Below are positions 1 through 27,438 of a stretch of 64,000 nucleotides of DNA, one piece after another. How positions within the stretch are numbered: the stretch's first letter is position 1; every line of letters begins with the position of its first letter. Under the pieces are notes generated by a model, which was not told the origin of the DNA, did no database searches, and saw only the letters and a program-made list of their open reading frames with translations. The position numbers were made by a program, and so were the translations under genes. The stretch comes from Daphnia carinata (lineage: Eukaryota; Arthropoda; Branchiopoda; Diplostraca; Daphniidae), in contig NC_081335.1 of assembly GCF_022539665.2 (NCBI RefSeq), forward strand, positions 2,232,001-2,296,000. The letters are read 5' to 3'.

Positions 1-1323
1 ATCAATTACATTTTCAGTCTTTCGACGTCGAGAGAAAGTTCGTTAGCGGATTTCTCGCTATCTCTCGGACACACTGCGGTCGAAGTTTGAACAATATCGA
101 GGTGGCGGATGTTCTACTCCATCTACTACAGCGATCCGGAAGAAGACGAAATGCAGCCAAACAGGCGGAAAAAAGCTTTGTGCTTTCATGTTTTTTTTTC
201 TTGTGTGGGAGGGATGAAGAAAAGCGAGAGAATCAGGGGAGAAAGAAGATATGGTTCGAAATCGATCGGTATATACTTGATGTGCGCTGGGATTCTTTTC
301 GCTCTTTGAAGTAACCATTCCGCCTGCATCCGAGTGGAAGGAATGATGAGAAGCTTTTTTGATTAGTCGAGTGCAAGCTAAAAGCGCTTCTCTCTCTTTT
401 TTTTTTTTTTTGCCTCTTATCGATTTGCCCAATTCGTGTAACGAACGAATCGGCGGAGATGATTGGAAAACTTACGTCGGTTAGAAATCGTAACTAGTTT
501 CGTACAAAAATTTAGGCCGTTTTCTAATATGGTTCACGAATCACGAGGCTGGCAAAAAAATATCAAGGCATCTTTTCTAACTTTATTGGCTTTGCAGTTG
601 AGTAACGAACGAAATGCACGTGATACACAAGGAAAAAAAAAAGTTTTTCGGTCGTGGGGTCCGAACCAGTCAGACCGAAATCGCATCAACTGCAATGGGA
701 TCAGCAACCAGACGAGCCGTCGTAAAAGATTCGACAACGTATTATTGACCTAGTATTATATTCGATCCGGCATGTGCTGGCAAGCACAGAACAAAAAAAA
801 AGGCCTATAGGGATACAAGAAAAAAAAAACGCAATTGAAAAGAATAACATTTGTTAATGATTGATTGCATTACGTACGTGAATTTCCGCAGCATTCATGA
901 AAAAAAAAACTTCACGACCTCAATAGTGTCCGTTATCTCTTCTTTCTTCGCTGTCCAGGCACAAAACATCCTTTGCCCATTGGTCGTTATTCTACTGTCC
1001 ACATTTTGCTTTTATTTATTTATTTATATTTTTTGGGGGGGGTTTACATCGGCACAACAAGGGCATTCTTTTTTTATTGCCTCGTACCCCCCCCCCCCCC
1101 CACATTTTTCCTTTGTTGCCACTGGGTTCGTAATCACCGGCCGAGATGGACGTTTCTTTTGTGTGCGTGACTCTATTCGACAATGCGCGACAGCGTCTTC
1201 CTCCCAGCAGACAGTGGCATTATAAATAAAGAGACAGCTGTGCAAGATTGGAAACAAAAGAAAAATAAATGCCGGACGCTGTTTTCATCAAAGACACATT
1301 TGTTTTTGGATTTATGTTTTCAG
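1..1323. other. intronic or upstream sequence of the EGF gene
   Basis: No convincing exon was found here. The stretch is rich in A and T runs and has a run of about 15 C at 1087-1101. There is no EGF-type cysteine spacing on either strand. It ends at the CAG acceptor at 1321-1323, so at least its right part is an intron of the EGF-repeat gene. The small open frames do not have coding character. Confidence 0.5.
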
Positions 1324-7162: not shown

Positions 7163-7263
7163 GTCACGTGACGTGAACGACGCAGGTTGGTAGGGCTCTG
7201 AAGACCAAGTAGCTACCCAACTGGGTTATAAAATGCCATCGGAAACCTTGGAAGCGTATCAGA
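7163..7263 (+). promoter_or_regulatory. core promoter of PRP-A
   Basis: GTCACGTGAC, a perfect palindromic E-box, is at 7163-7172. TATAAAA is at 7227-7233. An initiator-like ATCAGAG lies around 7259-7264, about 34 bases downstream of the TATA box. The ATG follows at 7295. The same layout recurs before the other genes of the array. Confidence 0.75.
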
Positions 7264-7294
7264 GAAGCTCTTGACTTCCACTACAACGGACAAC

Positions 7295-8530
7295 ATGAAA
7301 CGCCAAAGAATTCCAAAGGTAAACATAACAATTCAAATTCCACAATCATTTAAAATACAGAATGATAACCTAATGTTTAATTATCTACCTTTGCAGTATG
7401 TTCTTTCGATTTGGCTGTCCTTGTTGGTACTAGGCATGGACGCCTTAGATGACAACATAGCCATAGAAAGCAATCCGAAGGAAGTGATGGTTGACCGGAG
7501 ATCCGATGGATTCGGCTGGAGTTTCATAACGGAAGGAAGTAAAATCGAAGCAGAGCCCAGGATGGAGAAACTGGAATGGAGCTATGACGCGGGAACACAT
7601 GTGGAAGAAGACGCTGACAAAAGATTGGATGATCTTCACTGGGATTCCAGTACGGAAAGCAGTTACGAAGACGACGTGGTTGAAGAACGAATGGACGATA
7701 TTGACTGGAGTTTTCTGACTGAGGAAACAACTATAGTGGAAGAGGAAGCTGAGCACAGGATAGACGACTTTAATTGGAACTGGAACATCAAGAGTTCTGA
7801 AGAAGATGATTCCGAAGACAGGATAGGTGAATCAATCGAGGAGCGTGACGCACATAATCATGAATATCGCCCCACGAAATGGCACGGCAAATTGAAGCGA
7901 ATTAAACATCATTACGGCCCACCGAAAGCCGCGAAAAGACCAAAGCCTCAATACGGTCCACCAAAATCGCAATACGGAGTGCCTAAACGGCCACTGAAAT
8001 TCCGGAAGCATCCGAAATCAAAATACGGAGCACCCAAGGCCCATAATCAAATACCCAAAGGTTATTATGGTCCATCAGAATCAAATTACGAGGCTCCGCC
8101 TTATTCAGCTCCAGTTTCCTACTCATCGCAACTGACGCATTCCATTCCAGCGACTCACAGACAACCGGAATCGGTTAGCAATTCAGCACAGCCAGCAGCA
8201 GTTAATTACCCCACAACGGTAGAAAGTAGTCCATCAATTAACATTCCTCCATCATCTCCGATTCAATCTCCTCCAATTGCTGGCTACACTACTGCCCCTC
8301 CAGTCCAAAACTATCATCCTACTTCCAGTGATCCGGTGAGCTACGAATCTCCGACTCATCCGCCTTCCGGGAACGATTTTGGTGATGCCTATTTGCAATC
8401 AACAGAGTCACCTGACCAAAAGCAGTCGCTTCATCAACCGGTTGAGGACAAAAGCGACAATCTAGGATTCTTTGAATATGTAAATTTTCCCAATTTCGAG
8501 GAGATTTTCAAACAGATATTTAAATTTTGA
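7295..8530 (+). CDS. PRP-A: secreted proline-rich protein with acidic Trp repeats
   Basis: Exons are 7295-7318 (MKRQRIPK) and 7397-8530, giving 385 residues. The phase-0 intron of 78 bases splits the signal peptide; the hydrophobic core is YVLSIWLSLLVLG. An acidic region (residues about 30-150) has five imperfect repeats of the form R-M/L/I-D-D-x-x-W (for example RMDDIDWSFLTEE). A basic module follows at about 163 (RPTKWHGKLKR), then YGPPK/YGAPK tyrosine-proline repeats and a Ser/Pro-rich linker. The end is a divergent form of the family C-terminal module (GFFEYVNFPNFEEIFKQ). A poly(A) signal AATAAA is at 8764-8769. Structure and gene layout resemble arthropod low-complexity cuticular or matrix proteins, which is an inference. 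The intron has no in-frame stop, so intron retention would add 26 residues. Confidence 0.85.
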   Translation: MKRQRIPKVNITIQIPQSFKIQNDNLMFNYLPLQYVLSIWLSLLVLGMDALDDNIAIESNPKEVMVDRRSDGFGWSFITEGSKIEAEPRMEKLEWSYDAGTHVEEDADKRLDDLHWDSSTESSYEDDVVEERMDDIDWSFLTEETTIVEEEAEHRIDDFNWNWNIKSSEEDDSEDRIGESIEERDAHNHEYRPTKWHGKLKRIKHHYGPPKAAKRPKPQYGPPKSQYGVPKRPLKFRKHPKSKYGAPKAHNQIPKGYYGPSESNYEAPPYSAPVSYSSQLTHSIPATHRQPESVSNSAQPAAVNYPTTVESSPSINIPPSSPIQSPPIAGYTTAPPVQNYHPTSSDPVSYESPTHPPSGNDFGDAYLQSTESPDQKQSLHQPVEDKSDNLGFFEYVNFPNFEEIFKQIFKF

Positions 8531-11102
8531 AAGACAAGCTCCAGAATTCCAAACATGCCTGAAGCGTTGCTCATTATTCACTTAGAAACACTAAGGTTTC
8601 AGGAACGAATAACCTTGGCTTTTACCCTCTCCCCCCCAAACGTAATTTATTAACTCCGCATTTATTGTTGCAAACAGAATTTTAGGCAGTCTTCATTTTC
8701 ACCTATTTAAAGTGTATCTTTTATTTTGCACCCGCATGCTACATAGCTCTCACGAATACATCAAATAAAGTACATTATACTTGCCAAGAAATATTTGTGT
8801 CGTTATTGACGTATCAAGTCCCACCATTTTCCATGAAAAGGTGCGAAATAAAAGCCCCAACGAACGAGTGTACCGAAATACCTAGGTGCACATGTACTCA
8901 AAAACGTGACCAGACACGTTTGCCCTTCAGTAGGCTTGTAGGGAAGGGTAAACATTTTCTTTGGTGACAAAGACTTAGTGCACTTCTAGACGCGGGTATA
9001 AAGTGTATAGGGAAGAGTAAGGATTTTTAGATGGCACCCCAGTCCTTTCTCATACCCAAGACTATTGCGACACATAGAAACTCAAGCTATACACTTAGGC
9101 CGTGTGGCTTCAATGTGTGACACTTTTCATTTAAACATATTATTTGCGACGTTAATTTTTCGTTGCCGACCCTCACTACTCATACTTCAGTGAAAATCAT
9201 AACCTTTTTTTTGCCGTTGGATTGGCATTGCAACTATGTGAGAACTACCTTGCACATCTTTTCCGTACTCCTACTGTTTAATTCCAATGGAAGAATATTT
9301 TTTAATTCCATTTAAAATAGCATGTCACAGTAGACGTACAAGATGAACTTCTATTTTTTTTTTCCTGCTAATGTTTCGGCCATGTACGTCACGTACCGAA
9401 TGCTCTGCCTTTCAATTCTTTTCCTCGTTGAGTGCTATCGATGATTACAAACCGGACGTTAATGGCAGTGTTTAGTGATGCTTCATTACATTTGCGTTCT
9501 TATCGTATCATTTGCTTTTTCAACGTTTTTATTTTGAGTTAGTGATTATATACGCGTACACAATAGTGCCAATTAACCAAGCAATAAGATAGCGGACAGG
9601 GTGACTGCTTCAGACCTCATTTTTTTTTCTCGTATTCGTACTGAAGCGTGATAGAAGTATCTTGATGAAGGTGTAACCTCGTTTAGATGAACGAAACGAA
9701 ATAAATAGCTCACTCGAGCAATTGTTAGCTAGCGGCTTCATTCTGTGCTATTGCCCAACCACTAGACGTCGTCGTGAATGAAATTGATAGCTCCCTTTCG
9801 ATTAAAACGATCCATATGTTCTTCTGGGGGGTGTATATGGTATAATTTGGAATCGGCCTGCATCCAATTACGTCATCAGAACCTACGGCGGAAGCCACTG
9901 CACGAAATTACGAAACCGTGACAACGCCGGTGAGGTAATTGCTGGTTTTCGAATTTCTTTTTTTGTTTTTTAATTTAGTTAACTGTGGGATGTTTGGAAT
10001 GAAGTCTGATACAGTTTTACGCCAAAGGAAATGTCCTAGTGTTCTAATTAGACAATTTATGCGTGAGTGTCTTAAGGGTGAGTTGTAAATCACTTCTCTG
10101 ATACCAGGATAAGTAGAGAAAAGTTAAAGAAGCACTGGTTTTTTTTAAGGAATAAAAACCCGTTATGAGGCTATTAAATGATAATGATCAACGATTACAT
10201 TTGTCGTCTTGGTGCTAAAAAAAATTACTTTCTTAGCCTGCAATTAGGGCAGCCAAAATGGACAAACTTAATCTCTCTTTGAAAATTTTTGTAATGTTTT
10301 ATTTTATGGCCATTAATTTGTTTCAAAGTAAACCCGACTAGAATTTTCGATAAGCGCCAAAAAGGTAAGTCTTTGTCCCAGATGTTTTCGTTCTGGATAT
10401 TTCCCCAGACATTTCCAAAGGGAAGGGTACAGTAAGATTCACAATTTTTCGTTCCCTTCCTCTCCCATTATTTACATAGTTTTCACATACCTTACCGCAC
10501 CCCTTGGCTTTAGCAAAAGGAAAACGAAAAAAAAATGCTAATTTTTGAAACGAAATATTTGTATTGCGAAATTTAATGTTTTTTCAATATTTGTGCACGA
10601 AAACAAAGTGGCACAGTCGAAATGGTGACACAATAAGTCACGTAAAAAAGTAGGTCGTTGCTTTACTTTTATTTTAAAAGAAATGATCAAACGCAAAGAT
10701 TTTGTCCTCTAGCTCAACGCAATCCGGAATTGAACATCAACTCCTTAACAAACGAAATGTTGTGGCAGCTGCAGGGTTTTCTCGTGAGCTTGCCTGTTGA
10801 CCACTTTTTTGGTCGATACCGGGAGAGTAGACTATAACGAATTATTGTTATTATAACACAAATGCTTTCAAAGAAACAGCCATTCCTCTGCAAATATCAA
10901 CGGGAAAAAACCGGACAATATTTTTCCAGAACTCCCCGCATTGCTGTTTTCTTCTTTTTTTTTTTCTCTTTTATTCTGGTGGTTTTTGTTACCGTCTGGG
11001 GCATCAAAAGAAAACTATAGAAAAACGACAGAGGGATAAGTAGTGCACGCGAATATGTGTCTATTTGCGGGTAAAAAAAAAATTATTTTTTCTCACCATA
11101 TG
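8531..11102. other. spacer between PRP-A and PRP-B
   Basis: The PRP-A 3' UTR runs to about 8790. After it I see no gene. A TATA-like GTATAAAG lies at about 8997 without a following signal-peptide exon, so a decayed family member cannot be excluded. The open frames are short and not protein-like. Confidence 0.45.
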
Positions 11103-11201
11103 GTCACGTGACGGGGTTAGATGAGTTTGCTTTGTGAAAGCGAAGCCCAACCCCCGAAATACTATATAAGACGATTACATTGCGTTCAATATTGTATCAG
11201 T
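11103..11201 (+). promoter_or_regulatory. core promoter of PRP-B
   Basis: GTCACGTGAC at 11103-11112 is identical to the PRP-A site and lies about 60 bases before TATATAAG at 11163-11170. The initiator ATCAGTAAGC has its A at 11199. Confidence 0.75.
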
Positions 11202-11279
11202 AAGCTTCTCGAGTTGGTTTCGACATTGTCTCTTCAGTATACATTTTGTTTCAAAAGAAAATTTAATCACAAATCAAAT

Positions 11280-14200
11280 ATGGAGCTTCAAGGACTTTTG
11301 AAGGTAAATCATCTCATTTTAATATTTACAAGAGATTTGCATATGCAAATTCTTAGTCATTTTGGCGCGTTGCAACATCTCCAGCTATTAAGATTTTTGT
11401 TTTTTCCGTTACCTGCTTGAGCTGCCATGAAAGCGGAGGGGGGATCAAAAATTATTCATGTTTCGTTTCATAACTCACCCTTCCTCTCTCCAGTACGAAC
11501 AGCTCATTTGTTTTCTTCTGAGTAATCTTTGCAAAAATTCAGAATTAAATCCCCAGTGTACTAGTTCAAACGGTAGGGAAGCAGAAAGCCACTCAAATGT
11601 GCAATACAATTCTCTTTCTTTGCGTCTTCTTTCCCCATGTTCCATTGTTATGAATATGCTAAAAATGTCTTTCGACGACAAAACATTACTAAACTTCTGC
11701 TCCTTATAGTTCGTTGGTCCTATTTTGCTAACGCTGTTAGCCATGGCCCTCGCTCACAACAGAATGGATGATAAGGCAGAACAGCTGATGACGCATGAAG
11801 AGCAAGGACAATATGTTGGCTATCGTCAATCGAAATGGCTGGAGAAATTCAAGAGACCAAAACCTCCCAGATCTAACTACGGAAAACCGAAAGCTTATTT
11901 CAAGGCACCTAGGCCACAGTACGGTGCGCCAGTCACGACCCATTACACTCCGCCACATGTCAGCTATTATGAAAATCCAACACCTTACCCATCTCAATAC
12001 CCTGCACAACCATCTTACGTCCCATCAGCTGCACGGCCACCAAAGGTAAACTTTTTCCAAAATGCATCTCCGTACAATCAGCCGCAAGTAGTTTACAGAA
12101 CACCTGCCAGCAACCCGTCGCATCCGTCTTTTAGCAACCCAGAAGTTCAGAATGGTACACCCGCACCGGTGCACCAGGAACCGGTTGACAGTAACCCGGA
12201 ACAGCCACCTTCGGATTACATTCCCCCGCAGCCCGTGAACCCACCGCCACCAGTGGATTCCCCACAAGTTCATAATAATCCAGAGCAACCTCTTTTTGGG
12301 CCGTCAGGGCTTATGAATGCACCTGTTCATTCTGAAACAGAAGATTCTCGAAACCAGGTTAATATCCAACCCTCATCACAGCCACTTCCGGATTACGTTT
12401 CATCGCATCCTGTCAACCCACCGCCGGCTGTTTACGTACCACCGGTGACGCACAACCAAGAGGAGCTTTATAGTCATCCAGAACCTGCGATCGTTACACC
12501 ACTAAAGGATTACCAAGAATCAATCAACAATAACCAACCGCAATTTGCTGTTAGCCATTCAGAACCGGTGGATAACCCGCCAATGCAAGATTTTAGCGTC
12601 CCAGTGAACGAAGAGTCACAGCAGCACAGTCTAGACTTCATTCCATCCGAGCTGGTCAATCCGTCGGTTTACCAATCACCTGAAAATAATCCAGAACAAT
12701 TTTCCTTTAGCCATCCGGAGCCATTGAACAATTCTCCGCTATCAAATTATGAAGAATCGGAGAATAACAACCCGTTGCAGTCGTCTTATAGCCAACCAGA
12801 ACCAGTTAACCAGCCGCAACCATCTTACGGTCATCATGAAACAACCAACAACTCACCACAAGGTCATGGAGAGCAGTTTATTAATAATCCACCTCAGCCA
12901 CCCCACGGGCACCAAGAATTTGCAAACAGTCCTCAGCCGCCCCACAGCCACCAAGAATTTGCAGACAGCCCTCAGCTACCCCACATCCCTCAACCACCCA
13001 ATAACCCACTGCCACAACACAACCACCAAGAATTTGCAAACGGTCCTCAGCCAGCCCACAGCCACCAAGAATTTGCAAGCAGCCCTCTGCCACCACACAA
13101 CCACCAAGAATTTGCAGACAGTCCTCAGCCACCGCACATCCCACAGCCACCTCACATCCCACAGCCACCCCACAGCGCTCAGCTACCCCCCAATCCTCAG
13201 CCAGCTCAAAGCCACCAAGAATTTGCAAACAGCCCTCAGCAACACCACATCCCCCAACCACCCCATAGCCATCTGCCACCCCACAACCACCAAGAATTTG
13301 CAAACAGTCCTCAGCCACCCCACATCCCACAGCCACCTCACATCTCACAGCCACCCCACCATCCTCAGCCAGCTCAAAGCCACCAAGAATTTGCAAACAG
13401 CCCTCAGCCACCCCACATCCGTCAACCATCCCATAGCCATCTGCCACCCCACAACCACCAAGAATTGGCAAACAGCCCTCAGCCATCCCAGAGCCTTCAG
13501 CCAACCCACACTCACCAAGAATTTGCAAACAGCCCTCAGCCACCCCACATCCCTCAACCACCCAATAGCCATCTGCCACCCCACAACCACCAAGAATTGG
13601 CAAACAGCCCTCAGCCACCCCACACTCACCAAGAAGCTCTTAACAGTCCTCAGTCGTCCCATGTCCCCAAACCACCACATAGCCCTCAGCCACCTCACAG
13701 CCACCAGCAATTTAGAAACAGCAAACCACTATCCGGCCACAAAAAGAAGAACAATAATCTTAAGCGACCATTTTCTGCTCAGCACCAGGCTTTTCCAAAT
13801 CGTCCAGGACCATCATCTTATCGCAACTCCAATCCCATCAACAATCCCCCACCTGTTCAAAACAACAATCCTACACCATCGTTTTATAGTCAACAAGGGC
13901 CAGTTAATAATCCACCACCATCACACTTAGCAGCATCGATTAAACATAATCCGCCACAGCCATCGGTGGATTTCATGCCATCAGATCCTTCTTTCAGCCA
14001 GGAAGAAACAGCTTTTAACCAACCACACCCCATTCAAGAACTTCAACAACCAGCTCACACTGAAGCTCCACCATCGACGCTGAAGCCGATGAATCACAAC
14101 GTTCCTGTCCAGGATTCTTTCTTTACTACGGAGGCAACAAGTCAGCATTCTTCAACTAGCTCTCCAGTTGTCCCGACTGAACATCAAGCTCCGTTAGATT

Positions 14201-14367
14201 TCCCTGATAGCCCGTTTTCGGCAAATATTGAAGAGGAAACACCTACCCTTTTTTACAATGAATTCAAAAAAACTGAGAGAAATCGACAAGATGCGGACAC
14301 AGGATTCTTCGAATTCGGTATTTTCCCAAAAAGCAACAGTTTCTTTCTTCAGAATTACAGAGGTTAG
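11280..14367 (+). CDS. PRP-B: giant proline/glutamine/histidine-rich secreted protein
   Basis: Exons are 11280-11303 (MELQGLLK) and 11710-14367, giving 893 residues. The signal peptide (core VGPILLTLLAMALA) is split by a phase-0 intron of 406 bases. A short RMDD-containing acidic start is followed at about residue 43 by the basic module (YRQSKWLEKFKRPK), then Tyr/Pro repeats (QYGAP). A long region follows in which HQEFANSPQPPH and HIPQPPHSHLPPHN recur many times (12897-13700). The protein ends with the family module TGFFEFGIFPKSNSFF and QNYRG. A poly(A) signal is at 14574-14579. It is extremely rich in Pro, Gln, His, Asn and Ser and has no enzymatic domain. An extracellular structural role is inferred. 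Confidence 0.87.
12897..13700 (+). repeat. coding tandem repeat in PRP-B
   Basis: This is a degenerate tandem array inside the PRP-B reading frame. The unit CACCAAGAATTTGCAAACAG, encoding HQEFANS, occurs about a dozen times, with CAGCCACCCCACA-type Pro/His segments between copies. Unit length varies from about 45 to 170 bases. Near-identity of units suggests recent unequal exchange or slippage. It also keeps two other frames open, which produces long spurious open frames. Confidence 0.9.
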
Positions 14368-16360
14368 AAGAGCTAGGCCAATGTCTGGCAATAGGATCAT
14401 AAAAAGAAGCAAATTAGGTAAATGTTTTTTCGAAATTGAATCGGTCTCTAAGCGACCCTTTACTAGTTACGATATTTCTCTCGACAATCGGTACTATGCT
14501 TCTCTATGGTTTCAAGCCAGAACCAGCTTGAACAGATTTTTGCAATTTAATTTAAAGATATTTTATAAATTATAATAAAATGCACCAGTTATTAATTCAC
14601 GACCATCTCTGTATTGGACCACCCAACAATTTTGTTATTGATTGTTTTCTTGTGCGTTGTTATTGTTGTCACGTTCAGTTCCACTTGAATGTCAATAAAA
14701 GTACTCCAGTATACGTCGTCAATCGTCTTAACTATTTTTATTCCTCATTTAACTCTTTTCTCTTTTAGTCTTTCTTAGCCTTAAGTTTTTTCTCTCGTGT
14801 GAAGTGGGTGGTGAGAAAGTGGGGTGGCAGGGCGGTTTGTTTTCATTTTCATCGACCACAGCCGCCATGATTTTTTTGCCTTTGGGTGATGGGATTGGTG
14901 AAAAATGTTGGATTCAGGGATGGGTGAGGAAATAAATGTCCTTGAGAGTTTGCCAGATCATTTACAAAAATTGCTTTCCCGAATCAGTTGATCTTAAAGT
15001 GCTGGTGGTGCAGGTACAAGACAGTACCTACACAGAAAGCAGGAGTGAAATCGACTCTTTAGGGTATGTGAGGTTCACATAATGTTTACAAAGTTATTTT
15101 GACCTATTGACGGTTTCCAGCTAAGATATTTTTAAAATATGCAACATTTCCCCTGACTTTTTACAGGGATCCATTGCACTTTCCTGGCTGCTGGCAAAAA
15201 ACTTCCAACGGCCTATCAGCTGCTGTTCTGCTGGCAGCTAAAAATGATTAGTGAGTACATTGACAGAACCTAAAAATTAAAATAAAATTGCCACAAGCAA
15301 TACGTGATACTTGATAAATGGTTGTCACGATCAGTTAAATATTCGCATCTTGCAATCTCGTCATTACTATTATGTGAATCCATTTTGTCGTGATGTTGTC
15401 AGGGCCTGTTTTACTGGCCTCTTTCTTATAGTACTGAGCTTATTATTTGTGTTACGTGCCTGCAACTGTTTCTGTTTTTGCGTTTCTGGCAAACAACAGC
15501 CAATTGTTTCTCTTATCAATAGGATGTATTTTTAGAGAAAAAAGAAAAGTACCACAGGCTTTGACCGAAAGAGATCTGCCTACACTGGGTATGAGGAAAA
15601 GGAACCGGTCCGTTGCAGTATGTCTAACTTCGAAGAAAAGTTAAAAGGAGGGCGCTTGAGTACACGACATCAATTAAATTAGCATCCCCCGAACTGCCTT
15701 TCGGCCTGATAGGTTTTTTTTTCCTTTAAACATTTATTCGTGCACACAAAACTAATTATGGAGAAAGCAGAAAATTCAGAAAGGCTTAATCTTTGAAACA
15801 AAAAACACGATTATCGATTCTAAAAAAAAAAAATAAATAAAATTGGCGTTTTGCCACTTTGCATGACACAAATGCCAAACAGTATATCATAGATTTGTAC
15901 ATTAACTTAATTAATTTTATCTTAGAAACAAAATCACAGAAAACTTGTAATGGCAAATTCGCTTAAGATTGTTAAGTAATTTCACAGAACATAAAAATTT
16001 ACACAATATTCGATGATCCTTAATTGATAGTCTATCGGCTATTTGTGCTGCGTAAATTCCACATGCCTTTAGGTATACTTAACTTTCTAAATTTCAACGA
16101 CATATGTTCCAGCCAAGTGTGACGGAATCAGAGCATCTGTTCGCGCGTCCTTGATAAAATGTGGCAGAAACTGGAATTTGTTTTACTACGTTGTTCTACG
16201 ACTGTAAGTGACCCGACTTCCGTAATCTTAATAGAAATAAAAACTTTTGAACAGTTTCCAAAAGAATTCATCAAGTTACATACAAACTGACGGATGGGTA
16301 AGTAGAGCAAAACTGAAGATGATGAGCGATCGACGGCATGAGCCAAGATGAGTTACTAAA
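14368..16360. other. spacer between PRP-B and PRP-C
   Basis: The PRP-B 3' UTR is followed by AT-rich sequence. No splice-consistent exon or signal-peptide start was found. AATAAA-type signals at 14574 and 14695 may end the PRP-B transcript. Confidence 0.45.
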
Positions 16361-16445
16361 TCACGTGACTAAGAGGAGATTAGGAGAAAGCGGTACCCTC
16401 TTCACCTGGATATAAGACGGACGTCAGCGTGTTCATATGTCAGTG
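16361..16445 (+). promoter_or_regulatory. core promoter of PRP-C
   Basis: The E-box TCACGTGA is at 16361-16368, TATAAG at 16411-16416, and the initiator GTCAGTGAGG has its A at 16442, 31 bases after the TATA start. The layout and order match PRP-A and PRP-B. Confidence 0.75.
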
Positions 16446-16515
16446 AGGTTCTTGAGCTTGTCTTCAACATATTGTCTCATTGTTGCAAGAAAATTGATAC
16501 AATCCAAGAAGAATC

Positions 16516-17839
16516 ATGTCCAAGGTAGTCAAAATTTTATTATATTATTTTTATTGTTGAACAAGATTTGCAAGAGATTTCGAGAACCACACATTTAATC
16601 CTTTGATATTTTTTTTTTAATTTTCAGGTGTTCATTCCAGTGACGCTGGTTTTGTTCAGTCTTCTAGCTTTATCAATTGCCGAACGCAGGTTTGATAATG
16701 CGAAAGATCTAATAGAAGCTCGGGACGGGCATGTTGAGGAACATCGTCCAAAGAAATTATTTGGCAAACTTAAACGAACAAAAGGTCAGTACGGTCCACC
16801 AAAAGTACATCAACCGAAGAAACCCCAGTATGGACCTCCTCCACACGTTTATGGTGCACCACAGCCAGTCGTTTATGGTCCACCAAGTCAAGCTTATGGA
16901 CACCCGAAACCTGTACATCCTCCACCACAGGCTAATTACCAGCCTCCTGCTTACCACCCACCTCAACCAGCCGCGTACAGCCGGCCAGCTCCTACCCACA
17001 GCCATCCCCCAAAAGCAAGTTATAGCCCACCTGCGTACGCAAGCCCTCCACAGACTGTTTACACTCGACCGAGTCCTGTATACCCTAAGCCGGCCCCTGC
17101 CTACAGTCCACCACAGCCTGCTTACCCTCAGCCAGTCGCAACTTACAGCAAGCCTGCTAAACCAGAAGTGTCGTACAGTCCACCAGCACCTTCATATGGC
17201 CATCAGCCAGCTCAGGTAAATCATCAACCAGCTTCTTATGGTACGCCGGATCACGATGACAGTCACGAAGACGATCGCAAACCATCAGATGATCTTCCAT
17301 TCACATCTGGGTACAACGTACCGCATTCAGCTCATATTGAACTACCCACTCCGGGTTATGGATCATCGAAACCATACGAGCCAGCTGAACCAAAACCGAT
17401 TGTAACGCCAGTTTTCATCAAAGCGGAGTTGACGGGGAATCGTTATCAACCATCAGCAGAAAAACTACCAGAAGTCCCTGTTTACAAGCCTACATCGTCT
17501 CACAGCTCATCACAATCGGAGAATTACCAACCGCAATTAGAAGATGATCCTCCTAAGCAAACTGGATATAATCCTAAAAAACCTTACTCAGATGACGCGA
17601 GTGACGATCATTCAGCAGTTGCACCTGCTGTCACCGGGTCAACAGATAGTTCTGACCACGACGATGACAAACTTTCGCCACCAAGCGAGTCTGATTTCCC
17701 AACGCTCTTTGATCCTTCAAGTAATTTTTACAAGCAATCAGAAAGCGGGTCAGATACAAAAGATCAGGATTTCGGATTCTTTCAACTTGGCGTCTTCCCG
17801 AAAACGAGCAATTTCTTCGAACAGAATTACAAGGGTTAA
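16516..17839 (+). CDS. PRP-C: secreted YGPPK-repeat proline-rich protein
   Basis: Exons are 16516-16524 (MSK) and 16628-17839, giving 406 residues. The signal core is VFIPVTLVLFSLLALSIA. The basic module at about residue 39 reads HRPKKLFGKLKRTKGQ; it has Leu where the relatives have Trp. It is followed by a Tyr-Pro-rich zone with YGPPK, VYGAPQP and YSPPAY units to about residue 200. A charged, Ser/Asp-rich C-terminal half follows, and the protein ends in a clear family module (GFFQLGVFPKTSNFFEQNYK). The YGPP/YSPP pattern recalls resilin-like or low-complexity cuticle proteins. There is no chitin-binding R&R consensus, so assignment to a known cuticle family is not supported. Confidence 0.87.
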
Positions 17840-20093
17840 TAATTTTAAATGGTAATATTCACCGGGGTGTTAAACGTTGCCATAATCAAGAGGATGAAAC
17901 ACATCTCCGTAAAATGGAATTCTTTTTCAACTGCTGAGCTGAATCAACTAAAAATACTTTTTATTAAATTACAATTTTTATTTTGTAGCTTTATTTTGTT
18001 ATCTAAATAAGGTGATGAGATCCCATCAATCTTCCAGTACTGTATAAATGATTTGAAAATGTTTTTTATTTTTGAAATATTTTGTTCTGTTATTTTCGTG
18101 GGATTGGTAACCATTTCCAGAATAATGCATCACCGTGAAACGCCAGAGGAATGTTAAGCAAATTATAGGCTTCGTCTAATAGTTGCCGACCCATGATAAA
18201 TCTTTTTAGGCATCAACACACCACAATGTCCGTCAACGGTAACTATGATTGCTTGCAAAAGTATGTGATTAGCGTTGTTTGCCCTTGTATCAAATTGCGT
18301 AAAATTCGTTACAATAAATTGTTGAAATATAAACAACAGGCTTTGAGAAATCTTTTACTCTTGTCCGTCTTGGATGTTTTGAACACACGGCGACGATATA
18401 GCTCAGCCTAAATAGTAAAACTGAAATTCGATAATTAACAACTTGTTTGAGAATTGCCTTTCATCTTGATTAATCTCCTTAGATGCAAGGTTTCACAATA
18501 AGCCTGTCAGGCATTGAAATCGTTCCATGACTATGCATATCTAGAAGATTCTGGCATCTCGAGAGGTTGCAGACTTGTCCCTGTTAAAAGGTGGCATAGT
18601 CAATCGGAACACTTCCTACAATCCAATTGGTGTCAAGACATCTCCGCTGGTGGTGAAAACGACACGCATTAGTTTCAAATTGGGGAAAGCTTCGCTGAAC
18701 TTCCTGGCTTATCAGCGTGTGACTAGAACATTTTACGCACAGCCTTTATGGGCAAGATCATGAGATCAACAGACCTTTTTTTTCACGTTACAAAGTCGAA
18801 CAATCTCCTTTGGAAGCTGGCCATAATAAAATTAGGTCGTATCATTGTTATCAAGTCTTTTCGTTTTGAAGCGAAGATTGAAACGGGAATACTAACAGTA
18901 GATTTGGGGGATACATAAGTGATGCCCCACTGGTTTTGAAATAATGGCTGTATACACGCATCTCTGGGCTTTCACGTGTAGTGGTGTTGGCGAGTTAGAG
19001 CTCGCCAAAACGGTCTGCTTTAAAACTGATCTGGCGACGCCGCATCGGAGGAAGAGAATCGGTAACGAAAGGCGGAGCTTCGAGGTCTCGACCTCACTCG
19101 ACTTCAGTCTTGATCACACCTCGAACCCTTTTCTTTCCGTTTCCGCCCGTAAATTGAACTTCGCACAAGTTCAACTTTGGTTATTCATTTTTCCTTTTCT
19201 TTTTCCTTTTCAACCGCGTGGAGAGGCAACAAGTGGGAAGAATATTCAAGTACCGCCCATGTCAGGTAGCAGCCCACGTTTCTTTTGCTAACAATATGGA
19301 GAAAAAAGGTGAGCATGATTCGGTTGTTGGTCTCCATGGTGTCCAATCCATAAAGGTCAGAAAAACAAAGTTAGAATACTTGGATTTAAAAAAAAATGAA
19401 ATAATTGTTGAGTATTGCAAAGTACCCAGCTTATTATCTATAAATTTTTATATGGAGTCATCTCGGCTGAAAAAGGCACTTAAAAGGCAGGCCAGTAATT
19501 ATCCGATCGTAGCTGATTCTTTTACACTTTGAAATAGTAACAAGCGTAACTGTTGCAGGTGTACCTAGTGACCTACACAAAATGTATTTAATGTGTTCGA
19601 GTACCGTAATGCATCTAACGAAGTATTATGTCCAGCAGCCGTCCGCTTGGACAAATTCAAAACTGAAGTTTACCTGCAGTTCCAAACGAGACATTTTTTT
19701 TTCTTCCAAATTGGGATACGTACTGGAGAGTAACCTGCACTGATGGCTGGAACAGTAAGTTAAAATAGTAAACAACTAAACCCAGATTGGACGTTGCATC
19801 ATAACGGGAAGTAATTCAAAAATCCTCATGCATACATGAATTGCCTTTGATGAGGCCTTGTTGTCGGGACATGGTAAAAACATCTGCGGGTTTCATGCCC
19901 AACACTTGAGTACAGTTCTGTAGAATTGTATATCATATCTTAACGACTATCCCATGAATATAATAAAACGACAGAAAGGTGACGGATAACTAGTGCGAAA
20001 CTACATAAATCCTTCGACGATCATAAATTCAGAAAAGGCCAGGCCGTTAACGTGGTAGGGTTATTTTTGGAAAAATCCAGAATCTACCAGGAG
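17840..20093. other. spacer between PRP-C and PRP-D
   Basis: No gene is supported. Several open frames of 60-115 codons (18193-18411, 18575-18763, 18944-19291, 19218-19532) lack splice context, a signal peptide or a recognisable domain. Part of the stretch around 18540-19300 has a slightly more GC-rich, coding-like texture and could be an old repeat or gene fragment. Confidence 0.4.
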
Positions 20094-20128
20094 TATATAA
20101 GATGACGGTGAGTCTTCTTTCAGTCAGT
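20094..20128 (+). promoter_or_regulatory. core promoter of PRP-D
   Basis: TATATAAG is at 20094-20101 and the initiator TCAGTCAGTG at about 20120-20129. A half-matching AACGTGG (relative of the CACGTG box) lies at 20049, about 46 bases upstream of the TATA box. Confidence 0.65.
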
Positions 20129-20199
20129 GATGTTTTCGACATTTTAACTTCAACATCCATATCTTGCTTCAAAAATAGTGAAAGAGAGAAATCTCCATC

Positions 20200-21962
20200 A
20201 TGAAGGATCACAGAATTTCAAAGGTATGGGGTTTGCCTTGGAAGAATAACACAACATTCATAAATTAAAAGCTAATTTTTAATTAAATCTGTTTTAGATG
20301 GTCGCCTACGTATTGTTCACTGTAATACTTGCCGTAACAATCGCCGAGGAAATTGGGGAAGACGTTGCAGAAAGTTGGGAATTAAGAAGCCCACGATGTG
20401 AGCACCACAATCACGACGGAAAACGGCCGACGAAATGGCTAGGAAAACTGAAGAGAACTAAAACGCAATACGCTTCATCGAAGCCCCATTCACGACCGAA
20501 ATCTCATTACGGACAACCTCATACCCATAACCGTCCTCCGAAACCGCAATACATCCCACCAGCCACCAATTTTAGAGTCCCTCCTTACAATCCACCAGCC
20601 TCTTATCTACTCCCACATTATTCTCAATCAGCCGTGCAGAATCCTAACTCTCTTCAACATGCATCTTACCCTCCTCAGCAGAAACCACAGGTATCTTACC
20701 CTCCTCAAAAGAATACGCAATCGCTGAGCTACGATCCTCCAGCACATGTCTCTCCTGCCCCCACGGAAGCTCCACTTCCCTCTTACAGTAATACTCCCTA
20801 TCCTCAAAGTCCTGAAAATTTTGAAGACCTTAGTCTTCCAATGTCAGTTTACATTCCGCCAGCGCAAGTTCACAATCCGGCAGGTCCATACTCTCCTGCA
20901 CAGGCTCCGGTTGCAGCGTCTTACGATCTATCAGCAGCACCGCATACAGAGAGCCCGAACAACTTTGCTGCAACAAACCTTCCATCTGCATATATCGAAG
21001 TGACTTCACCGCCTTCCTACACTGAAGCTCCCAGTCCCCATGTTTATAATCCAACTACACCAGCCTATGATCCTCCGGTTACTAGTGAAACAGAGGCTCC
21101 TCACCTTCCTTCTTCACAAGTTCCAGTCTACGATCCTCCAACGACGTACCCTCCACAAGCCATCACAGAACACTCTGTTTACTCCTATCCTTCTTATGCT
21201 CAGTATGATGAAGCGTATAGTCCTCCAGCGCTGACACCGGAACCGTACAATCCTCCACCAGTGACTGAAAGCGCACCTGAATCTTACGTCCCACCACAAC
21301 AGCCTCAAAATACGATAGTTCCTTACGCTCCCCCATATCCTCCAAGCCTTGATTCCGTATCGTACTATCCACCGGCCTCCACCGAGGCACCGAATTATTT
21401 TCCTTCGTCTTATGACGATGCTTCCTACTCTCATTCTTACAATCCACCAAGCTCCGATTCTGCTCCGTATTATTCACCGGCCCCCACCGAGGCTCCTGAT
21501 TATTTGCCTCCGTCTTACAACGATTCTCCTTACGATGGATTGTATAACCCACCCGAACAGAACAAAAACATGCACGTTTCTTATACGTCCCGACATCCAC
21601 TAAACCCCGATTCCGCCCCGCATTACCCAACTGTCTCTACCAAAAAACCGGATTATTTCCCGCCGTCCTACGTTGAATCTCCTTACCTTGAATCTTATAA
21701 TCCTCCAGCGTCAAAGTACAACATACCTGCATCCTATTCGTTCCCTAGTTTCCCCAGTTCTAATTTTCCATCCTATTCTTTTCCAGCGTTCATGGAGTCA
21801 GATGATCACTCCTCCATTGGCTACAAAGATGTTCGTTACCTTTCGACGAACGACAGAACGTCAGCTTACAATCCCAGTCACAAAAATGAAGAATTCTTTC
21901 AATCTGGCAGCTTTCCCCGGTTTAACGAGTTCTTGCAACAAATGTTGAGAGGTAAAATGTAA
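20200..21962 (+). CDS. PRP-D: secreted Tyr/Pro/Ser-rich protein with 34-residue repeats
   Basis: Exons are 20200-20223 (MKDHRISK) and 20298-21962, giving 562 residues. The signal core is MVAYVLFTVILAVTIA. The basic module at about residue 49 reads RPTKWLGKLKRTK. The middle is made of YNPP, YDPP and YSPP units, with three long repeats of about 34 residues near 358, 393 and 444. These have a D-S-x-x-Y-Y-x-x-x-x-T-E-A-P core and a Y-N-P-P end. The C-terminal module is diverged (EEFFQSGSFPRFNEFLQQ) and extended by a few residues. No enzyme domain is present. Its membership in the array rests on promoter, intron position, module and gene order. Confidence 0.86.
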
Positions 21963-23141
21963 CAAAAAACCTGAAACATCAGTGAGCGGTACAGTTGCAA
22001 ATTCCAGCACGTCTAGTTTACAGTTGCTAAATCTTCCTCAGATTGCATTTTTTAAGTGTTACATAGTGGGTTGGGATATCTTGTTATGCTCTATTGAATG
22101 GGATGATATTTAAATATTACATTTTTAGTTAAATGATGCTACAAAAAAAAATACAAGGTGTTGTTTCATTTGGCAATGGTCGAAACTTCCGCTTTCATTT
22201 TCCTTGTGCTTACGGGTCGAGATACAGTAGCAAAAGTTCGAAGAACTGATTGTTTCCGTTGTAATTGTTGTAGTTTCAGACCACACCAGGTAAGTAAATC
22301 GAGCCGATAGGCTCCCCGAAGTTGTAGAGCTGTCAGTTATAATAACTGTCTAACGTGTTTTTGGCGAACACGTGAATACAATCTGTAATTGTGTTGTAAC
22401 GGTTAAGCTGTTTATTAACTATTTTTCTTACCTTATGCAGCAATACGAGTTGACCTAAATTTACCGGGTGGACGAAAAGCTACCTGGTTATTACTGGAGC
22501 CCCCAAGCAAATGTGGTAGTCTGGATAAACTATCACAATGTTTTTCTGGCTACTTTGTTTTGCCATTATGGCAAATAGAAAAATGTCACTGAGAACTGAG
22601 ATAGCTGCGAAAAGTATTTTTTCTTTCTTCGTTCGTGTGTGAATTACCGGCCACGTATTCTTATGGTTATTTAAAGATTATTACTCCCAGAACCTCTTTT
22701 CCTTGTTTCCTTGTGACACTTTTTATTATTGGTAAAAGCTTTCTCAGCTCGCCTTTGGAAAGAAAAAATTCAATTTTCACACCTATGGAATCAGCTAAAG
22801 CGAATGGTTATGAAGCATTAAATTTCCGTATTGGTGGTATATTGAATCGGTCCATTGGAATCACAGTAACCAATATCTGGCCTCCTTGCTGCTATACCTG
22901 CAGTTTCCTCATTTATTCGCTAGCGCTGGACTCTAAACGCCATTACGTACTCTGCTGTCCAGGTATCAAACCACCTCCGGAGTTCGCTCCAGACGATCAA
23001 AAAAAGGTAGTCATTTTTCCTCGTCATTACGATACTACAAATTTCCAAGTTAATGTGATAGATCTAGGCTGGATGTCTGTGTGCTCTATGGCCAGCAGCT
23101 GGATTACATTTCAGTAATTCAAGCCAATTGACTCGAAGCAG
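21963..23141. other. spacer between PRP-D and PRP-E
   Basis: No gene is supported, although one open frame of 160 codons spans 22635-23117. The part from about 22790 to 23030 resembles the region about 25765-26000 upstream of PRP-F, so the open frame is probably chance within duplicated upstream DNA. Confidence 0.5.
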
Positions 23142-23181
23142 TATAACAATCATCATTGTGCTTCTACTTGTCCGACAGTGA
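23142..23181 (+). promoter_or_regulatory. core promoter of PRP-E
   Basis: A TATAAC variant at 23142-23147 lies 35 bases before the initiator-like GACAGTGAGC (A at 23177). The CAGTGAG start is shared with PRP-C and PRP-F. No CACGTG box is present within 100 bases. Confidence 0.6.
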
Positions 23182-23245
23182 GCTTGTCTCGATTTGGACT
23201 TCAGTGTAGTCTAGCAACAACCACTACAAGCAAAACAATCACAAC

Positions 23246-25001
23246 ATGAACCTCCAAGAGGTTTCAAAGGTACAAATTCAGTTCTAGTTCGTTTAAGTAA
23301 AGATAGTTAACTAAACTAAAAGGAGATTCCTTTTCTTAATACATTCCTTAGTTTTTAATTCCTGTTCTGGTGGCAGTACTTGCCCTAGCGATGGCTGATG
23401 AAGGCGTACACGACCCAAGTCTCTATCAGTTTCTTGACTTTACACGAGTGGAGCAAAGCCAGAAAAATGAAGGACATCGACCGTTCAGATGGCTCAACAA
23501 ATTTCGCCGGAAGTCTCAAGCACCATCAAGATCACACTCGGAATCTACCACTACAAAAGAGCAAAAAGGTTCACAGATACCATTAAATTACGTTATTGAA
23601 GACGTGTCTACACAATACCGACCGCAACCAACTTACCATCAAGCAGCGCAACATCAACGGGGATCTGTTAAGAAGCCAAAAGACACTTCTTACATCATCC
23701 TACCACCACCACCAGCGGGCCAAGCTAAACAGATCAACATTCCATCACACGCTGCTTATCTTAAACAGCAAAAGAAACCAAAGATGCCGCTCGTGGCAGC
23801 TTACAAGCAGCGTCAACAAGCTAACAATCCACTGCACCCACCACCATCTCCACCAAGCTCAGATTACAAACAGCAAGTAGGAGAGGTGGACTACAACATC
23901 CAGAAACCTTTGCCAATCCCCTCATCTCAGCAGACCCCAGATTCCCTTAGGAATGTTCCACTTGTATTGAATGATGGAAGCCATTCCAGTGAGGATTCTA
24001 CTCCAACTCATGTTGGTTCTCGCTATTCGAAATGGTTGAACAAGATGCGACGGAACAAAGGTCATCACAATCAGCCTGAAAAACTAGAAAACCAACCGCC
24101 TAAACCCCATAATAAACCCTCGGAGAACCTAAATGATCCTTCGTACTATTTTCAGAATCCATCTCCCAATAACCAATTGCAGCCTGTTTCACATCAGTCA
24201 GTTAGTGGTCATGTAAACGCTAATGGTTATCGCCAACCTCAAACGGTTAACAGCGGACCACAGTTAGCTCCACCGAGACCTGCCAACACCAGGCCGGCAG
24301 AACCAACTTACAGCTCGCCGTCACCTGCGCCATTTCGCCCAGAGGCTTTTCCCACAGTGGCTTCGAATCAAGGTCTTCAAGAAAATTCTCCAGATTCTGG
24401 TGAAACAGCGGACCAAACGCCACCCCCCAACAGGAAGTCGTTCTATTCAAAATTTATGAAAAAGCTCAAAGGAAAGAAAGGGCAGAAACACGAAGAAACA
24501 GTGGCCGAAGAAGAGCCTGCTTTAACACCATTGCAAACACCATATAAACCACCGGTGGAACCGGTAGTTTACCGACCTTCCCAACCGACTAACTACCCAC
24601 CACAACCAACCCCGTCTAGGCCATCTAACGTGAAACCATCACGTCCAGCGAGACCAGCACCTTACAGTTCTTCTGGTACTGTTCCGACTGCGCTTAACCC
24701 ACATGCACCAGCTTATCAAGACGCTCCTGCTCCTACCACTTACTCTCCACCGCAGAATCTATACAACAAATATTCACCGAGACCAACTTATGCCACCACG
24801 GAGAAACCAGTGGCTTATTCACCATTACCAGAGGAGGACAGCTTCTTTTCACCACCGAACAAACCAGATTTTATTCCTTCACCTTTTCATGGACAATCGG
24901 AAAAAGGACAAGGAATTCATGAGGATCCCGAAGATGGATTCTTTGAATTCGGCATTTTCCCCAAAAATAATGGCTTTTTTGAGCAGAATTTTAAGGGTTA
25001 A
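23246..25001 (+). CDS. PRP-E: secreted proline-rich protein with three basic modules
   Basis: Exons are 23246-23269 (MNLQEVSK) and 23352-25001, giving 557 residues. The signal core is FLIPVLVAVLALAMA. Three versions of the basic module occur: HRPFRWLNKFRRKSQ (about 48), SRYSKWLNKMRRNKGHH (about 231) and FYSKFMKKLKGKKGQKH (about 370). Each is followed by a Pro/Tyr/Gln-rich linker, so the protein looks like an internal triplication. The C terminus is the best-preserved family module (DGFFEFGIFPKNNGFFEQ). A poly(A) signal AATAAA is at 25279-25284. The Lys/Arg-dense modules could be proprotein cleavage or matrix-binding sites; this is an inference. Confidence 0.87.
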
Positions 25002-26067
25002 ATCACTGTCATTATCCTGTTTCAAGCTCGTATGAAAGGTATTCTTTTTTTTTGGAGAAAGGGATGAGGTTTTCTCGCACATCTTTACGTTCCAAAATCA
25101 AAAAGAGCGGGCTCTTGTTGTCATGGAAACGTAACTGTCTTTGCATTTTTACTTGTATGGTATTTTTCACGAATTCTCTTAATTCCAATTACACAAAATT
25201 TTTTATTTGGTTTCACCCTTTCGCCAATATTTAAGTGTGTTCACTTGTTATGTTAAACCTTATACCATTCTAAATACAAATAAACCAAAAACAAAAAAAA
25301 GCAAAGGTCATTTTCTCATCTCGTCAAGGGTGGGTAACCAAAAAAATTACGTCATTTTAGTGCTATGAAAGCTTCAGTCTTGACGTGTGCCTCTCTCCGT
25401 CCTTTCACACAAAGCAACGTAAGAGTTAGGCAGGCAGAGCATAGTCTTTATTAGTTCCAGGAAATAAGGTAAGGACGTGAAAATGCACATAACGTTGGGT
25501 CTTTTTAAATTGGAGAAAGTTCGTTTGAAACAACATGACTTGACCTGCACGGCAAATGGCGACAGGAAACATTTGCAGAATGTATTTGTTTTCCAATTAC
25601 CTTGTAACAAAAAATGTATAGGCTACATCGTAACTTGGAAAGCGTCAACCAGTCAATGGATTAAACTCATTTGGAGAAACGTTTGTACTGGAAAGGTTGT
25701 AGTTTTTTTCTCGTTTTTGTCTCTTTGTGCTTGTTTTGAGAAAACGTAGCGATATGAAGCATGTAATAAGAGGTAATTATGAAGCCTTAAATTTTCTCCT
25801 TGGCAATAAAACGAATTGGGACGTGGAATCAGGGTAACCGACGTCTTTTTGTCCTCTTGCCTTTGCTAGCGTATTTTCCCTATATCTGTATCGTTCTCCT
25901 CATTTGTCCTCACTGAACGTACTTTCTTCTTTCTATGTATCAAACGAACTACTAGGGGGGTGCTGGCTCCGAACAAAAGGGTACTTAATTTTCTCATAGG
26001 TGTTAAATTCCAACAAAACTCGAGCAATTGGTCGGTTCGAGAAAGTCGAAATCGATTACGAAAAGGA
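25002..26067. other. spacer between PRP-E and PRP-F
   Basis: The PRP-E 3' UTR ends near 25300. The distal part (about 25765-26000) is homologous to the upstream region of PRP-E. The open frame at 25477-25749 has no support. Confidence 0.5.
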
Positions 26068-26106
26068 TATAAGACTGCATCTTTGTACTACGTTTGTTGT
26101 CAGTGA
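26068..26106 (+). promoter_or_regulatory. core promoter of PRP-F
   Basis: TATAAG is at 26068-26073 and the initiator TGTCAGTGAG has its A at 26102, 34 bases downstream. No CACGTG box was seen. Confidence 0.7.
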
Positions 26107-26192
26107 GATTCGCCATTCGACACAGTCTCGTTCCTTGGTAGCCGTTCGGTTAGGTAAGTAGTGCTCACTACGAGAAGCCTTAAAGTCCCAAC

Positions 26193-27438
26193 ATGAAATC
26201 TATTGGAATTTCAAAGGTACGTAATGCATCTTTGTTGAATGGGAATTTCAATACGAATTATAATTGAAAATTTCTATTAATTATAGTCCCTCGCTCTGGC
26301 CTTGCTGATTTTACTGCCACTTATAAGTGCCGATGGCTTTAAAGATCACCAGTTAAAATTCGGATACGACACCGGTGAATATCGCCTACTGAAATGGTTA
26401 AACAGAATAAGGGGATCAGATAGGACAACAACTCAAACAGAATCCCAATTCGAACCAATTAAAATTGAAACTATAACTCCCGAAATTCAGTACAACACAT
26501 CAAATTTCACGCAAACTCAAGTGTTTGATACTCCTCAGTTAGCAAAGGCAACATATTCATCCGTGCCGCAGCCCCTGGATAATAAATCATCATCCAAATC
26601 TTCACTTGACTCTGTTGAAGGACCCGAAACAAGGCCGTTAGTGACATCGGTGTCTTCTCCTTCCTACAGGGATTATTTCTATTTGAAATGGTTTCACGGC
26701 TCACCGAAAGCAACGTACTTTAATGAAACTGCGCTTCCAGATGAACCGACATCTGTTCTTGACAGCAAGGCGGAACACGGCCGCCATCCAACAGTAGCTC
26801 CATTGCAAACAACGAACCAGGAATTCAATGTGGGGAACATTGACTTTAGTGATGCGGACTCGGCTTTGCTTCCTGGCGATTCTCTTCTTGGAAAAGTTTT
26901 AGGCAAAATTAAACAAATGATGCCATTGAAAACACAAAAATTTGATATCGCACCGCTAAAATTGTACGACGAACCACCGAAACCCCAACTTTTTGCTCGA
27001 CCGGCAGTGATTCACATTCCCCTACCCAGCAATGATGTACAACAGATTCACAGCCAACCTATTAAAGAAGTTAACCCTGTTCCAGCTCAACCCGTCTATC
27101 ATGAAATAAGCTCAGCTATCAAGCAATCACCAGAACCGACAATCACTTCAACAACTACTGAAAATAGCCTGCCAACTACATCTAGCAGTTTACCGCAGCC
27201 AATTCCGCAAAACGAAGAAAATAGAACAGCTGAACCGTCTTCTACCCCACTGCTGCCTTCTAATTCCACCAGTGAACAGCCTGAAACAAAAGATGAGATC
27301 TCGGAGCGAATGTCCGGCCCTTTACAGACGATGTTTTATTACCCCAAACGACCGACCAACGATCCCGCACAACTTGAAGAGCCAGCTTATAGCGCATTAG
27401 AATTGGCTTTTGGTCCACTGGTTCCAGCATATCCATAG
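26193..27438 (+). CDS. PRP-F: divergent last member of the array
   Basis: Exons are 26193-26216 (MKSIGISK) and 26287-27438, giving 391 residues. The signal core is SLALALLILLPLISA. The first module at about residue 38 reads YRLLKWLNRIRG. Weaker relatives are seen at about 136 (YLKWFHGSPKAT) and about 205 (LLGKVLGKIKQMMPLK), which parallels the three modules of PRP-E. The protein is less Tyr-rich and has more Thr, Ser and Glu than the others. It lacks the FFxxGxFPK ending and stops with ELAFGPLVPAYP. A poly(A) signal is at 27773-27778. It is the most diverged member, perhaps a different function or an early stage of decay, though its frame is intact. Confidence 0.82.

Follow-up and report, generated by a model that had tools for sequence, protein, structure and literature searches.

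Cornman (2010; PMC2932725) described gene arrays in flies that encode secreted proteins of low complexity and unknown function, rich in Gly or Pro and for the most part free of Cys; the paper regards how such clusters arose as puzzling and counts 228 Daphnia pulex proteins carrying its Tyr motifs. A second point of comparison is offered by the proline-rich low-complexity cuticular proteins of insects (CPLCP), reported from Diptera and Lepidoptera (PMC12426002). Arthropod clusters of secreted low-complexity proteins are hard to trace because repeats mask homology. Here, we describe a tandem array of six genes (G1 to G6) from Daphnia carinata, a cladoceran branchiopod of an established crustacean model genus, in which short modules towards the two ends of the proteins persist. 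The array lies in the analysed window, a stretch of 64 kilobases (kb) (C5:2232001-2296000), from whose first base positions are counted, while labels such as C2 or C3 refer to other contigs of the same genome. Judged by sequence comparison, the six genes are one branch of a larger unnamed Daphnia family, of which D. carinata has 14 copies or more.

The array's kind has precedent in the fly clusters. In PMC2932725 these comprise at least three genes that lie clustered and encode secreted proteins poor in Cys, rich in Pro or Gly and with no Pfam domain, a description that also covers the array, and the likeness extends to signal peptides, low complexity and a suspected structural role. The fly cluster proteins are described as not recognisably homologous to one another, whereas the end modules demonstrate homology here, among the array members as well as with dispersed copies. 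CPLCP, which are secreted low-complexity proteins rich in Pro with Lys, Val and Tyr (PMC12426002) and were compared by composition and description alone, come close in that the array proteins also have low complexity, much Pro (10-20% in the six), Lys (2-7%) and Tyr (3-10%); the array proteins differ in a Val content of only 4-5% and in their sparse PY and PV pairs, together 0.5-2.3 per 100 residues.

A Pfam scan of the six array proteins returned a single chance-level match (CCDC53, E 0.19), and an NCBIfam scan gave two such matches in one of the six (E 0.35 and 0.59), while a search of PDB sequences with G5 gave nothing. This agrees with the preliminary description of the locus, which had seen neither a named family nor the R&R consensus in these genes. 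Since PF00379 matched none of the six, membership of the CPR (R&R) cuticular proteins was rejected. The same absence, together with a Gly content of merely 1-5% from the basic core onward, led to the rejection of resilin, which resembles several members of the family in its YG.P and Y.PP-type Tyr-Pro repeats and differs in its R&R domain and Gly-rich elastic repeats. Plant extensins were also rejected: the six give no match at E 1, and the Pro/Tyr part of four of five dispersed proteins matches Extensin_1 (PF02095) weakly, with 17.9-34.7 bits against a curated cut-off of 105, the likeness being restricted to repeat composition. In the literature on Daphnia proline-rich, extensin and cuticle proteins, no paper was recognised as describing the array family, and the names LOC130696770, LOC130696760 and GHT06_019841 occur in no paper of the literature searched. 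A D. magna "proline-rich extensin-like" gene, APZ42_021312, is listed as strongly downregulated in a metal-exposure table of PMC11331620.

The array spans 7295-27438 and consists of six plus-strand genes, whose spliced models have GT..AG introns of 70-406 nucleotides (nt). G1 (7295-8530; exon 1 7295-7318, intron 7319-7396, exon 2 7397-8530) encodes 385 amino acids (aa), and G2 (11280-14367; exon 1 11280-11303, intron 11304-11709, exon 2 11710-14367) encodes 893 aa. These are followed by G3, a 100% match to LOC130696770 (16516-17839; exon 1 16516-16524, intron 16525-16627, exon 2 16628-17839; 406 aa), G4 (20200-21962; exon 1 20200-20223, intron 20224-20297, exon 2 20298-21962; 562 aa), G5, a 100% match to LOC130696760 (23246-25001; exon 1 23246-23269, intron 23270-23351, exon 2 23352-25001; 557 aa), and G6 (26193-27438; exon 1 26193-26216, intron 26217-26286, exon 2 26287-27438; 391 aa). 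Exon 1 measures 24 nt except in G3, where it is 9 nt long, and ends in AAG in all six; in every gene the intron lies in phase 0 inside the signal-peptide region and is followed by a single long exon 2. Thus, the spliced models and shared modules bear out the earlier picture of a tandem array of homologous same-strand genes with a signal peptide split by a phase-0 intron. The position of that intron after Lys, also pointed out earlier, holds for the six array genes and fails as a family signature, since the candidate first exons of relatives vary; the terminal Lys is explained by AAG|GT being the splice-donor consensus.

The N-termini of the array proteins are computed to be hydrophobic and of signal-peptide type, and Cys is absent from five of the proteins and occurs once in G4. 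G2 is rich in Pro/Gln/His repeats, and its DNA at 12892-13722 (plus strand) holds tandem repeats with periods of 18, 39, 75 base pairs (bp) and up, with PQPPH and HQEFANS units. In G1, a long acidic stretch (7397-7880, plus strand; net charge -35), built of repeats of about 22 residues of the form R.DD..W, precedes the basic module.

The evidence for common descent comes first from this basic module. Profiles were built, leaving one out, from the other array members and scored on each gene's 36-residue basic segment and its 40 C-terminal residues, every score being set against 500 shuffles. The basic module reached 15-42 bits in G1-G5, a score equalled by 0 of 500 shuffles in each, and is located, on the plus strand, at 7865-7906 in G1 (YRPTKWHGKLKRIK), 11821-11862 in G2 (YRQSKWLEKFKRPK), 16742-16783 in G3 (HRPKKLFGKLKRTK), 20421-20462 in G4 (KRPTKWLGKLKRTK) and 23475-23516 in G5 (HRPFRWLNKFRRKS). 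G5 has a second copy at 24018-24059 (SRYSKWLNKMRRNK; domain E 9.1e-5), and its third basic stretch is not significant as a module copy. The G6 module (26380-26421, YRLLKWLNRIRGSD) is weak, with 8.0 bits and 1 of 500 shuffles as good, so that the shared module noted earlier is present in all six genes, faintly in the last. A profile scan of the six frames of the window, in stop-free stretches of at least 25 codons, revealed no further copies or relics above background. Ahead of the basic block, 5 of 13 proteins (G1, G3, C2, C3 and C6c; shuffle mean 0.02, maximum 1 of 13) carry a third motif, E.RD.[HY], in a post hoc test of a pattern first spotted by eye.

The aromatic C-terminal module (C-module) scored 15-38 bits in G1-G5, again with 0 of 500 shuffles as good in each and with G1 and G4 divergent, which settles at five the "four or five" copies first counted. 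The plus-strand copies of G1 (8462-8527, LGFFEYVNFPNFEEIFKQIFKF) and G4 (21888-21959, EEFFQSGSFPRFNEFLQQMLRGKM) represent a general form, and those of G2 (14299-14364, TGFFEFGIFPKSNSFFLQNYRG), G3 (17771-17836, FGFFQLGVFPKTSNFFEQNYKG) and G5 (24933-24998, DGFFEFGIFPKNNGFFEQNFKG) a derived one. With a profile of the C-ends of dispersed relatives, none of 500 shuffles scored as well as G1 or G4, and 7 did so for G5, 63 for G2, 141 for G3 and 371 for G6. When G1 and G4 were joined to that profile, 139 of 1000 shuffles were as good for G2, 134 for G3 and 5 for G5, and on full mature sequences the joint profile found none of G2, G3, G5 and G6. The C-end of C10:3854528, which is in no profile, scored 19.0 bits (0 of 1000 shuffles). 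In the reverse direction, with the G1-G5 profile, four of the eight dispersed C-ends beat all 1000 shuffles, and for the other four 4-16 of 1000 scored higher. These profiles thus assign G1 and G4 to the general form and tie the form shared by G2, G3 and G5 to it solely via the array.

Short queries with the C-module had given the impression of an isolated family. The DNA pattern FF[EQ]xGxFP has 15 matches in the genome, four being G2-G5 and 11 lying in short frames (10-151 aa) unlike the family, and a genome query with the G5 C-module recovered only G5, G2 and G3. This impression was dropped when longer queries revealed divergent members. A protein search with the C-module region of G5, of a limited sensitivity that missed the G2 and G3 types, gave only G5 relatives (4 of 5 candidates).

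Genome searches and the reading of open frames point to at least eight more loci of the same design on five other contigs: C2:3172168-3172884, C3:1311604-1313468 (minus strand), C4:3738143, C6:3036679-3037709, C6:3039629-3040690, C6:4093052-4093879, C10:3854528 and C10:3858938. A family of these six genes alone would therefore be too restrictive a reading. Eight is a lower bound, as one query gave 130 matches, many to the repeat part only, and open frames were read at 14, then 11, of these loci, several overlapping. The C4 locus is the weakest member (E 1.7e-5, with an approximate query sequence). A G3 genome query gave eight matches, among which G3 itself and G1 represent the array; open frames were read at six of these loci, and two on C6 show K(R)PK.SYGAPK blocks and YSPP repeats. 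The C3 locus holds the basic motif RPSKWQEKLKR, in the form first reported for the array, and its second open frame contains GFFSSNDFPDFDDFF. Used as a query, residues 1-99 of the C3 frame gave 12 matches, including loci on C2, C6 and C10 (one C10 place with stops) and four of the six array genes, with individually weak values (G1 E 0.0014, G2 0.0066, G4 0.04, G3 1.9). A profile of seven dispersed basic blocks scored 26.7-30.9 bits in G1-G4 (0 of 500 shuffles each), 8.7 bits in G5 (3 of 500) and 4.2 bits in G6 (4 of 500).

At two dispersed loci the basic block and the C-end stand in separate open frames, of 406 and 155 aa at C3 (L041) and of 331 and 272 aa at C6:3036679 (L030), and the end modules are placed inside Pro/Tyr repeats or behind them. 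The split may be due to an intron, to slippage in the repeats, or to a frame or assembly error, and each locus was taken, by assumption, as one gene. For six of the eight dispersed loci, pattern searches predict short phase-0 first exons of 7-9 codons (MKRGTSQ, MRREISR, MKREIFK, MKHFIFQ, MTRSGIQK and MARRIEISK, with CAG, AGG or AAG as last codon). Thus, the design of a 3-9-codon exon 1 followed by a phase-0 intron in the signal peptide is found in all six array genes and, as candidates, in those six dispersed loci. Other Pro/Tyr-rich loci read, such as L008, L042 and L046 on C8 and C7, were not counted as members, having a His-rich start and no C-module; these three form another Pro/Tyr-rich group with a GHGHHGHHDH start and KPKGSYGAPK blocks.

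That Pro/Tyr repeats match so many genes, with many of the 130 genome matches covering the repeat part alone, might suggest that sequences of this composition converged without a common origin. We find this scarcely credible: the non-repeat modules of G1-G5 beat all 500 shuffles in the leave-one-out test, which already contradicts it for those genes, gene structure is common to the members, and upstream DNA is similar beyond shuffles in four pairs of array genes. For G6, the counter-evidence consists of the weak basic module and the upstream similarity to G5.

When upstream DNA was aligned against 100 shuffles, the pairs above them were G5/G6 (score 92, shuffle maximum 39), G2/G3 (74, 43), G3/G4 (58, 44) and G2/G4 (53, 44), and the remaining 11 of 15 pairs were not above. 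This pattern fits successive tandem duplications giving two subgroups. In the 400 bp before the start codons, a single 10-mer, TAAGTAGTGC with at most one mismatch, is common to five of the six genes (0 in 15 shuffled sets), and no 11-mer is common to five. All on the plus strand, it occurs as TAAGTAGTGC before G1 (7120-7129), G2 (11037-11046) and G6 (26155-26164), as TAAGTAGAGC before G3 (16299-16308) and as TAACTAGTGC before G4 (19987-19996). The copy of G6, 38 bp from its ATG, probably sits in the 5' leader. The degenerate pattern TAA[GC]TAG[TA]GC, composed after the sites were known, has just these five copies in the window, upstream of G1, G2, G3, G4 and G6. A second word, TCACGTGA, has three copies in the window, before G1 (7164-7171), G2 (11104-11111) and G3 (16361-16368), also on the plus strand. 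G5 lacks both upstream, and the shared element was found before none of the seven dispersed loci checked of the eight. We describe the 10-mer here as a putative promoter element.

Relatives of two array genes suggest that the family is transcribed. Protein databases were queried with G3 and G5 among the array genes, to which this evidence is confined, and scoring in the G5 search covered the 7988 candidates with the most words in common. The G3 relative P0002, whose contig has at most 1,457 bases, reads through the exon junction (MCK-VFN) and has extra in-frame residues ahead of the start, as from mechanical reading of a spliced transcript; P0009, a G5 relative on a contig of 2,167 bases, also reads through it (MNLQEVSK-FLIP). 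Both are presumably transcript contigs of other Daphnia. P0007 (DUF4794) was rejected as a relative, covering 43% of G3 at 34% identity with, by eye, only SYGPP-type repeats in common.

The ends of these proteins are better conserved than the linkers. Among G5 and four relatives, the N-domain has a mean pairwise identity of 0.82, the later basic stretches have 0.73 and 0.68, the C-module 0.80 and the linkers 0.57; among G3 and five relatives it is 0.67 in the basic block, 0.81 in the C-module and 0.46 in the linkers. Late-starting alignment rows depress the value of the first residues (0.33). AlphaFold2, with shallow alignments, gave no confident fold (mean pLDDT 46.6 for G3 and 42.4 for G5), and its G5 model places helices, mostly of low confidence, at all three basic stretches.

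Taking together the computed features, namely a signal-type N-terminus, scarce Cys, predicted disorder, conserved ends with faster linkers, a basic block that mostly follows an acidic stretch, and dispersed homology, we see about an even chance that the array is a tandem, partly co-regulated branch of the family encoding secreted, disordered, Pro/Tyr-rich structural proteins that belong to an apical extracellular matrix, most likely the cuticle. Location in the cuticle, assembly, cross-linking, docking and self-association are what we infer from these features. The intron that interrupts the signal peptide may be a further likeness to genes for cuticular proteins, for which, as a general rule, the literature search gave no paper. 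By gene design and composition, the resemblance to cuticular proteins seems a reasonable fit. It may be proposed that the basic block docks on acidic partners, whether acidic stretches in sister chains or different polyanions of the matrix, that the aromatic C-module brings chain ends together, and that Tyr and Lys of the linkers would be oxidatively cross-linked, tandem duplication yielding dose and linker variants.

The charge pattern backs this sticky-end mechanism only in part. In the 11 proteins examined, the 60 residues that start at the basic core carry a net positive charge in all (just +1 in G6) and the stretch before the core is net negative in nine; the second half swings strongly to negative in G1, G3, C6b and C10 (0-12 of 5000 shuffles). 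Several observations weigh on the other side of a structural matrix role. The swing is nominal in G4, G5 and C6c (159-200 of 5000), borderline in C2 (261 of 5000) and absent in G2, G6 and C4; G6 has no C-module (292 of 500 shuffles as good); the Pfam scan of the six found neither R&R nor any other chitin-binding domain; and low-complexity composition fits gut, gland or egg-case proteins, too.

This last point leads to a rival placement, in which the proteins would belong to the peritrophic lining, the labral-gland secretion or the egg or ephippium case, not to body cuticle. Cornman (PMC2932725) found the same Tyr motifs in peritrophic-matrix and eggshell proteins, and composition cannot separate these sites. 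Weak support for an epidermal matrix comes from the adjoining gene at 29298-31210 (minus strand), whose cuticlin N-terminal domain, CUT_N, lies above the Pfam cut-off (E 6.1e-8), with ZP-type matches below theirs, and which is probably another apical-matrix gene. Its adjacency may be coincidental, a further point against a cuticular reading. On balance, we hold these other sites to be unlikely, though a serious competitor.

A different function would follow if the proteins were precursors, in which cleavage after the dibasic KLKR/KFRR separates an acidic pro-piece from a cationic proline-rich product such as an antimicrobial or signalling peptide. The basic module does end in KR or RR in G1-G5, and the net negative stretch before it in nine of 11 proteins would suit a pro-piece. 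Precursor processing is nevertheless improbable, given that the proteins are long (385-893 aa) with mostly one conserved site, that residues flanking the dibasic pair are conserved as well, and that the conserved C-module is left without explanation. A cationic amphipathic helix was likewise not supported for the basic module, as the hydrophobic moments of 17 basic segments are ordinary (ranks of 245 and 495 among 5000 shuffles for the two highest), which again speaks against such a product.

Returning to a structural matrix role, we suggest more tentatively, and with some doubt, that these genes belong to a possibly cladoceran-restricted, unnamed matrix family built like a telechelic polymer, in which disordered Pro/Tyr spacers that evolve fast connect a conserved cationic "sticker" near one end with a conserved aromatic one at the opposite end, and of which the array would have gained its own promoter element and, in G2, G3 and G5, a derived C-module. 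The end modules linking the array to its dispersed relatives provide a starting point for building up the family, for studying its expression and for testing how disordered matrix proteins assemble.

Elsewhere in the window, Rfam and tRNA scans gave no matches. EGF-like domains extend across two open frames at 1269-3617 (plus strand). A run of open frames at 46391-49978 (plus strand), which by eye resembles an importin-type gene, includes one frame that was scanned (47068-47739) and has no Pfam match. A methyltransferase domain (Methyltransf_11, E 3.5e-8) is found at 60363-60701 on the plus strand, and a Dscam C-terminal domain (PF12355, E 7.3e-33) at 62824-63315 on the minus strand.

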